In this document: positions 23,097 through 32,708 of the stretch, piece after piece | Position numbering within the stretch: the first letter of the stretch is position 1 | Layout: every line of letters begins with the position of its first letter | From: Fontisphaera persica | Lineage (GTDB): Bacteria; Verrucomicrobiota; Verrucomicrobiia; Limisphaerales; Fontisphaeraceae | Assembly (NCBI RefSeq): GCF_024832785.1 | Contig: NZ_CP116615.1 | Span: forward strand, 3,348,001 to 3,412,000 | Length of the DNA: 64,000 nucleotides | Direction: 5' to 3' | Notes under the pieces: model-generated | Told to the model about the DNA's origin: nothing | Databases searched by the model: none | What the model saw: the letters and a program-made list of their open reading frames with translations, nothing else | Position numbers and translations under genes: made by a program

Positions 23097-24575
23097 TTAA
23101 TCCTCCGGCAGCGGTTGGCCTTTGGTTTCCGGCGCCCAAATCAGGGCCACCAGGCCAATGAGAAAAACGCTGCACATGAGGGTGGCGACCAGGCGGAATT
23201 CCATCAACGTGGTCAGATAACCAAACAGGGCCGGAGCGGGCGCTGCCAGATAGCGCACGGTGTTGTAGCAGAATCCCACGCCCGTGCCACGCAGGCGGGT
23301 GGGGAACAATTCCGGGAAATAAATGGAATAGCCGGCGAACACGGACAAGGTGGCAAATCCCAGCAACGGCAGCATCCAGTAGGCATCGGTGGGTTTGCGC
23401 AGGAAATTGAACACCAGCGCGACCACCACCAGGCATGACAGGAACGAGACGAAAAACGCCGGTTTGCGCCCCCAGCGCGAGGCCAGCACCGTGAAGACCA
23501 TCATGCCCACAAAGGCGCCGGCATCCTGCAACGCGGTGCCCCAGCTCTTGACGGTGTCCACTGTCCGGGCCGGGTAATCCCCCTTCAACGCCTCGCTAAT
23601 CAGCTCCGGCGAAAAGAAGCCGATGCCCCACAAGCCAATCATGCCCGAAACCCCCAACAGCAGGCCAATCAAGGCATGACGCCGCCAGCGCGGATGCTGC
23701 AGCATTTCCACGGGTGAACCCACCTGTTTATCTTTGTGTCCCAGCTTGGCGGCTTCCTTGGCTTTTTTCCAGGCTTCCGGCTCTTTCAAAATGAAAATCA
23801 TGGGGATGGCCAGCAGCGCCGGCAGGATGCCCACAAAAAACAACACCCGCCAGCCGGCATAGGGCCCCCAGAAGTTTTCCGCGCTGGGAGGAATGGCCAG
23901 ACTAATCAGGGAGCCGGTGATGTTGCCCGTGGCGGACAGGGCCTGCAGGGAGCCAAGCGCCACCGAACGGAAATTGGTGGGCACACTCTCGGCCACCAGC
24001 GTGGTGGCCGCGCCAAACATGCCGCCCACCCCCAGCCCCACCAGAAAACGAAACGCCATGAATTGCTCCCACGTTTGGGCCAGGCCCGAGAGTCCCGTAA
24101 ACCCGGAATACACCAGCAGCGTGGCCACCATCGTCTTCACGCGCCCCCATTTGTCGCTCATCATCCCGAAGAAAATCCCGCCGGTGGCCCAGCCGATAAT
24201 CATGCAGGTGGTGGCCCAGCCGCCATAGTTTTTCGCGTCCCGAGCCTTGACCTCTTTGAGTTTTTCCGGGGCGGGTGTCGCGGGCTGGCCGGCCGGGGGG
24301 GAAGTGCGGCCGGTTTTCTGGCAATCAGCGCAAATCTCGCTGCGCGCCTTGTCTTTGATGGGCACACCGCAGGCGCTGCAATACCGCTTTTGGGTGTATT
24401 CGTGCGCGGCCAGCTCGGTGAGCGCCGGCTGGCGGGCCAGGATGAACAGGCGCTGGTCCATGCAGTCAAACAACCAGCCGCAGGAGGCAATGATGACCAG
24501 CAGCCAGTGATAGGGGGTGACGCCGTCAAAAGTGCCGCCACTGCGTGGCCCGTCGGATGTCGTGTTTGCGTGCAT
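23097..24575 (-). CDS. MFS transporter with inserted zinc ribbon
   Basis: A 492-residue major facilitator carrier with about 12 helices. TM1 is YHWLLVIIASCGWLFDCMDQR, and the motif A loop GGIFFGMMSDKWGR follows TM2. Overall it is like the sugar/sialate:proton symporter type. The loop between TM1 and TM2 is expanded by about 70 residues and contains YCSACG(V)...ICADCQ, a CxxC-x15-CxxC zinc-ribbon pattern, followed by a Pro/Ala-rich stretch. The ATG at 24575 is preferred over 24650. Substrate unknown; no metabolic partner gene is adjacent. Confidence 0.88.
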   Translation of the reverse strand: MHANTTSDGPRSGGTFDGVTPYHWLLVIIASCGWLFDCMDQRLFILARQPALTELAAHEYTQKRYCSACGVPIKDKARSEICADCQKTGRTSPPAGQPATPAPEKLKEVKARDAKNYGGWATTCMIIGWATGGIFFGMMSDKWGRVKTMVATLLVYSGFTGLSGLAQTWEQFMAFRFLVGLGVGGMFGAATTLVAESVPTNFRSVALGSLQALSATGNITGSLISLAIPPSAENFWGPYAGWRVLFFVGILPALLAIPMIFILKEPEAWKKAKEAAKLGHKDKQVGSPVEMLQHPRWRRHALIGLLLGVSGMIGLWGIGFFSPELISEALKGDYPARTVDTVKSWGTALQDAGAFVGMMVFTVLASRWGRKPAFFVSFLSCLVVVALVFNFLRKPTDAYWMLPLLGFATLSVFAGYSIYFPELFPTRLRGTGVGFCYNTVRYLAAPAPALFGYLTTLMEFRLVATLMCSVFLIGLVALIWAPETKGQPLPED

Positions 24576-32045: not shown

Positions 32046-32708
32046 ATGGCAAAAGCAAACAAAGCCTATGTGTTGTTTGGCGCCCCCGGCTCGGGCAAGG
32101 GCACGCAAGCCGAACAATTGGTCAAGCATTACGGATTTGTGCACGTGGCGACGGGAGATTTGTTTCGGGAAAACCTGAAGCAAAACACCCCGCTGGGACA
32201 ACTGGCCAAGGGCTACATGGAGAAAGGCGCCCTGGTGCCGGACGATGTGACGGCCCGGATGCTCAAGGAGCGGCTGCAACGCGGAGACGAAGCGCCCGCG
32301 TATTTGCTGGACGGTTTTCCGCGCACACTCCCCCAGGCGCAAATGCTGGAGGAGATTTTGCGCGAGCTGGGCATCCGCCTGGCGGCGGTGATTTTTATTC
32401 AGACCAGCGATGATTTGATTGTCCGGCGGCTGGGCGGGCGCTTGATTTGCAAAGCCTGCCAGACGCCTTACCACAAGACCAATCGTCCCCCCAAAAAAGA
32501 AGGTATTTGCGACCGCTGCGGCGGGGAGTTATATCAACGGGCGGATGACAATCCAGACACGGTGCGGGCGCGGCTGGCCACCTTTCACTCGCAGACAGCG
32601 CCGCTGATTGAGTACTATAAAAAGGCGGGGCTGCTGCATCCGGTGAACGGCGAAATCAGCGCCGAGCAAACGCTGCAGGAAATCAGTGAGATACTGAAAA
32701 AGTATTGA
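32046..32708 (+). CDS. adk: adenylate kinase, zinc-LID type
   Basis: A 220-residue enzyme catalysing ATP + AMP = 2 ADP. Start ATG 32046 (MAKANKAYVLFGAPGSGKGT) places the P-loop at about residues 12-20. It has ATGDLFRENL, LLDGFPRTLPQA and a long LID carrying two Cys pairs (CKAC and CDRC) that would bind structural zinc, as in Gram-positive and thermophile enzymes. The frame upstream of 32046 is not homologous. It is monocistronic, downstream of the leftward tRNA gene. Confidence 0.95.
   Translation: MAKANKAYVLFGAPGSGKGTQAEQLVKHYGFVHVATGDLFRENLKQNTPLGQLAKGYMEKGALVPDDVTARMLKERLQRGDEAPAYLLDGFPRTLPQAQMLEEILRELGIRLAAVIFIQTSDDLIVRRLGGRLICKACQTPYHKTNRPPKKEGICDRCGGELYQRADDNPDTVRARLATFHSQTAPLIEYYKKAGLLHPVNGEISAEQTLQEISEILKKY

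Follow-up and report, generated by a model that had tools for sequence, protein, structure and literature searches.

The window, a stretch of 64,000 nucleotides of Fontisphaera persica DNA, encoded an MFS carrier on its minus strand (Table 1), with exact ORF ends (stop at 23097–23099, ATG at 24573–24575). The protein was matched by the Pfam profiles MFS_1 (E 3.7e-36, 125.2 bits against a cut-off of 33.4) and Sugar_tr (1.8e-31), its hydrophobicity displayed 12 peaks, and an AlphaFold2 (AF2) model made with 51 family members as input had a mean pLDDT of 91.1 and a pTM of 0.88. When this model was compared with MFS chains of the PDB, Z scores of 36–44 were obtained, SV2A and SLC22 carriers ranking first (top Z 44.3). 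By both the profile match and the 12-TM two-bundle fold the protein belonged to the MFS superfamily. Sixty columns were invariant in the 51-sequence alignment (including W34, D37, Q41, F44, R48, G137, D141, G144 and R145), indicating that the carrier was apparently intact.

Residues 137–147, a stretch resembling MFS motif A, would lie in cytoplasmic loop 2–3 according to general MFS topology. The top NCBIfam match was to AAHS-type MFS proteins (TIGR00895, aromatic acid/H+ symport; E 1.6e-47, carrier residues 118–454). Both TM1 aspartates were kept in the carrier (D37 invariant, D40 nearly so), but TM1 and the inserted loop fell outside the profile match and the subfamily cut-off was missed (162.3 vs 418.55 bits). 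The carrier may function like AAHS members though it is not classed as one. It is probably a proton-coupled secondary carrier.

Table 1. Features of the carrier gene, in window coordinates
Feature	Position	Strand	Basis
MFS carrier gene, 492 aa, 12 TM helices	23097..24575	-	ORF and translation, Pfam, AF2
Long TM1 helix, residues 21–64, carrying WLFDCMDQR and predicted to extend past the membrane into the loop	24384..24515	-	AF2 secondary structure
TM1–TM2 loop, residues 51–118, 68 aa (most homologues 16–23 aa)	24222..24425	-	Loop-length comparison
Cys4 knuckle, residues 66–85, C-x2-CG-x11-C-x2-C	24321..24380	-	Sequence; kept in congener locus L007
Pro/Ala-rich linker, residues 91–104, 3 residues shorter in the congener	24264..24305	-	Pairwise comparison
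MFS motif A-like stretch, residues 137–147	24135..24167	-	Sequence; G137, D141, G144 and R145 invariant

The loop between TM1 and TM2 contained four cysteines with the spacing C66-x2-C69-x12-C82-x2-C85. A preceding sequence-only reading had described them as CxxC-x15-CxxC in a 70-residue loop: the four cysteines were found as described, but the spacer was x12, and the loop, although long, represented a net expansion of only about 48 residues, because relatives already have about 20 between TM1 and TM2. Among 400,000 random 68-mers generated at the family cysteine frequency, 5 had a CxxC-x8–25-CxxC motif, as did 187 of 200,000 shuffled versions of the loop; the whole window, read in all six frames, had it at four places. 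A sequencing or annotation artefact was ruled out, since the insert was in frame in two separate assemblies from two species. Both the insertion and the cysteine quartet in it are genuine and exceed chance expectation. A CKAC...CDRC motif was also seen at 32448 (plus strand) of the window, within a 258-residue open frame; this motif may resemble the zinc lid of adenylate kinase.

The congener (G001, locus L007) had a carrier ~90% identical overall, with the same insert and all four cysteines. Outside the genus, the closest relative (L013, 68% identical) had a 47-residue loop without cysteine. Among 79 homologues (excluding the truncated or frame-shifted L037, L059 and L071 and the paralogues L002, L003, L010 and L012), the loop was mostly of 16–23 residues and six loops were of 35–64 residues (L013, L024, L025, L035, L056 and L060, scattered across the tree); no cysteine, and so no CxxC, was present in the 1657 loop residues. 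A second set of 128 same-order loci, 127 of them scored (L123 left out), had loops of 16–30 residues with one exception of 47 (on the contig of L013), no CxxC, and a single cysteine in L219 only. These two counts must not be summed, because the sets overlap (L106 is on the contig of L013). From the weaker homologue matches, 100 of those listed were taken in. L059 (3600–5290) was a homologue split over two frames by an apparent frameshift, with a short loop lacking CxxC.

When 387 genomes of the phylum were searched with a DNA pattern of DCMDQR plus two CxxC pairs, the only one hit was the window's own; this list did not include the congener, and the pattern misses carriers with an altered TM1. 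The insert alone, used as a protein query, gave matches in 12 of 384 genomes of the class. Among the matches examined (L098 and L100 left out), an MFS carrier was present only in the window's genome and the congener; L095 and L105 (the second match in the window's own genome) ran into kinase-like glycine-loop sequence, and the frame translated for each of L096, L097, L099, L101, L102, L103 and L104 did not contain two CxxC. Thus, within the genomes searched, the cysteine quartet was confined to a single genus, that of the window, no other homologue examined having CxxC at this position. A family-wide zinc ribbon was ruled out by the absence of CxxC from the loops of both homologue sets. Free variation of the cysteines among close homologues, which would have counted against the sequence-only reading, was not seen within the genus, where both species kept the insertion and the quartet; all other homologues examined lacked the quartet, so the feature is not general.

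On the tree, the window carrier and its congener (support 0.998) joined L013 (0.99), and the next neighbours were short-looped. By eye, the flanks “EY..K” and “PEK” were common to the L013 and window loops, which suggests that the loop was lengthened before the difference in cysteines arose; the quartet may then have been either gained in this genus or lost from L013. The window carrier and its congener were identical at 14 of 25 positions of the Cys core and at 348 of 374 positions of residues 119–492. The dN/dS between them was 0.25 for residues 58–118 (bootstrap 0.10–0.53) and 0.06 for the rest, indicating that the insert was under constraint, though looser than elsewhere; the Cys core alone gave 0.38, with a bootstrap range (0.00–1.13) that includes 1. 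The probability that the 14 identical core positions would include all four cysteines by chance was 0.08, so that a comparison of two species is no proof that the cysteines are under selection.

A zinc ribbon has two CxxC knuckles separated by about 10–15 residues, and C66/C69 and C82/C85, with x12 between them, had this arrangement. The zinc-ribbon-like Cys4 proposed earlier was thus borne out as a pattern, with profile scores below the Pfam cut-offs: DZR_2 and DZR matched the loop fragment weakly (E 0.003–0.005), and DZR, DZR_2 and Zn_ribbon_3 reached 18.0, 17.3 and 14.3 bits against gathering cut-offs of 27 to 27.3. A PDB sequence search with the insert returned nothing below E 0.34, and the insert folded alone gave a low-confidence model (pLDDT 53). 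No report of an MFS carrier with a loop-borne zinc ribbon was found in the open-licence PMC literature.

The window's genome contained 13 occurrences of C-x2-CG-x11-C-x2-C, compared with 3 of a reversed-pattern control. Six of the 13 were in open frames of at least 300 residues, namely the carrier, two kinase-like frames with a glycine loop, and three others that may resemble a topoisomerase, a ribonucleotide reductase and a multi-ribbon protein. The kinase-like proteins (L258 and L268) had ribbons of identical spacing to that of the carrier, but these were N-terminal, presumably in a soluble part, and not in a TM1–TM2 loop. Given its weak profile matches and the recurrence of its spacing in such frames of its own genome, the insert has the look of a zinc ribbon of the cytosolic type that is located outside. 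The similarity of the insert to the second own-genome match (kinase-like) was weak (E 0.0025), so that shared ancestry of the insert and the kinase ribbons is a lead and not a demonstrated fact; nothing on such kinase ribbons was found in open-licence PMC.

In the AF2 model, the TM1 helix was followed by a beta bridge (residues 65 and 72), a helix (83–88) and a linker, with TM2 starting from 103; the block pLDDT over residues 61–100 was 70–87. The model places the knuckle on the outer end of the extended TM1 helix, beside the outer gate. By the MFS fold the loop would be extracytoplasmic (periplasmic), in agreement with the side predicted earlier. Few zinc ribbons are known from the periplasm. 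The insert had also been thought foreign to the normal MFS fold; it does lie beyond the core fold, but TM1–TM2 ectodomains are known in the eukaryotic SLC22 carriers and STP10.

The SLC22 carriers (URAT1, OCTN2 and OCT3; structural Z 36–42, e.g. OCTN2 42.4 and URAT1 39.9) resembled our carrier in having the MFS fold with an extra TM1–TM2 domain, and the insert matched this ectodomain in position. They differed in being 18–20% identical to the carrier and in having a disulfide-bonded ectodomain, for which the available part of the source reports no CxxC knuckle. According to the same part, the URAT1 ectodomain lies between TM1 and TM2 on the outer side, and urate transport is abolished when its disulfides are lost (PMC11962085). 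In STP10, as the available excerpt describes, the M1–M2 loop forms a lid that supports proton coupling (PMC6345825); like the insert, it is an extra domain in that loop. It lies above the outer entrance and has a functional Cys, but STP10 is a sugar porter, and its lid is helix-helix-loop-helix and joined to the C domain by one disulfide. By analogy, the Cys4 insert may be a variant on the known theme of TM1–TM2 loop domains in MFS carriers.

A VKOR domain was detected in all three genomes checked, and DsbB in none of the three. In the window's genome the VKOR domain formed a fusion with a thioredoxin-like part that bears a CHHC motif (L142, 1381–2850; G000:C1 near 1556815); the latter was read by eye, the Thioredoxin_4 profile giving no match there. 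Judged by its sequence, this fusion is likely a periplasmic disulfide-forming enzyme.

The carrier gene was flanked by a DEAD-box helicase gene upstream and an ABC-2 permease gene downstream. When six other loci were compared, the congener was essentially the only one to share neighbours of the carrier, and it did so downstream. Clustering of flanking ORFs from 81 loci revealed no widely shared family apart from the carrier itself and overlapping frames (one cluster spanned 10 loci, and the other shared families listed 3–4 loci). A conserved operon was ruled out by these two comparisons, and no operon partner, regulatory gene or metal gene linked to the carrier was found in the loci compared. 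On four contigs (G462:C16, G425:C296, G417:C41 and G418:C38), two homologous MFS genes were adjacent on opposite strands, one 66–72% and the other 46–48% identical to the window carrier.

Our leading, still tentative, reading is that of a working MFS carrier that acquired a longer first periplasmic loop in its lineage; in this genus the loop would carry a zinc-ribbon-type Cys4 knuckle acting as a rigid, zinc-held cap or lid at the outer TM1 end, beside the outer gate. Like the SLC22 and STP10 ectodomains, the cap could stiffen TM1/TM2 and shield the periplasmic entrance. We infer both this role and the metal: Zn(II) would be coordinated by the four thiolates, a state that we place, with modest confidence, ahead of disulfides because of the knuckle signature. 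Retention of the whole quartet, in a core that has otherwise diverged between the two species, argues for the zinc-held cap, as do the constraint on the insert, the recurrence of the pattern in the same genome, the weak ribbon matches, the modelled structure of the loop and the fold neighbours with TM1–TM2 ectodomains; the availability of two species only, the probability of 0.08 for chance retention, the wide dN/dS range of the Cys core, the ribbon scores below cut-offs and the poor model of the lone fragment leave doubt, as do periplasmic thiols that may be oxidised (VKOR fusion) and sister carriers that manage without a knuckle. The same cap might instead be held by two disulfides (e.g. C66–C69 with C82–C85, or crossed), as in the SLC22 ectodomain. 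A disulfide within a CxxC motif usually serves catalysis rather than structure, and CxxCG-PI...CxxC is a layout typical of metal knuckles, which makes this arrangement doubtful; it is nevertheless a strong rival, because the VKOR-thioredoxin-like fusion makes periplasmic disulfide formation likely, and the periplasmic side given by the fold, VKOR in every genome checked and the requirement of URAT1 for its ectodomain disulfides are all consistent with it.

Three other explanations concern what the loop does. In a neutral or nearly neutral expansion, the loop would tolerate changes of length and the quartet would be a functionless passenger, as the scattered long Cys-free loops and an insert dN ~4 times that of the rest might suggest; a dN/dS well below 1 for the insert and the retention of all four cysteines make this unlikely. 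Recruitment of a cytosolic-type ribbon into the periplasmic MFS loop of one genus, to form a lid that responds to metal or redox state and governs access to the carrier, is in our view quite unlikely. A redox or metal sensor or gate, in which transport is turned on or off as the cap loses zinc and forms disulfides, would suit the modelled position of the insert on TM1 beside the gate, and zinc-CxxC redox switches occur in bacteria, as stated in the available part of one source (PMC3184428); with no linked regulatory or metal gene in the loci compared, such a switch seems very improbable. The sequence-only reading had, besides sensing, named partner binding and a substrate trap as roles that the loop might have; the loci compared revealed no conserved partner gene.

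Zinc binding by the knuckle outside the cytoplasm, as in the favoured cap, would make this an MFS carrier whose lid is fixed by a metal. Such a carrier would allow a test of an independent bacterial origin of TM1–TM2 loop domains, which the available parts of the sources describe from eukaryotic carriers, and of whether the bacterial domains likewise serve gating or the shielding of protons. L013, a sister carrier without the cysteines, offers a natural control for the knuckle.

A different insertion, of 113–130 residues and Cys-poor, was seen between TM7 and TM8 (after residue 335 of the window protein) in a subfamily of the carriers (L008, L063–L070, L072, L074–L077 and L079–L083). This site is the pseudo-symmetric counterpart of the TM1–TM2 loop, and SV2, the top fold match here, has its luminal domain at TM7–TM8.
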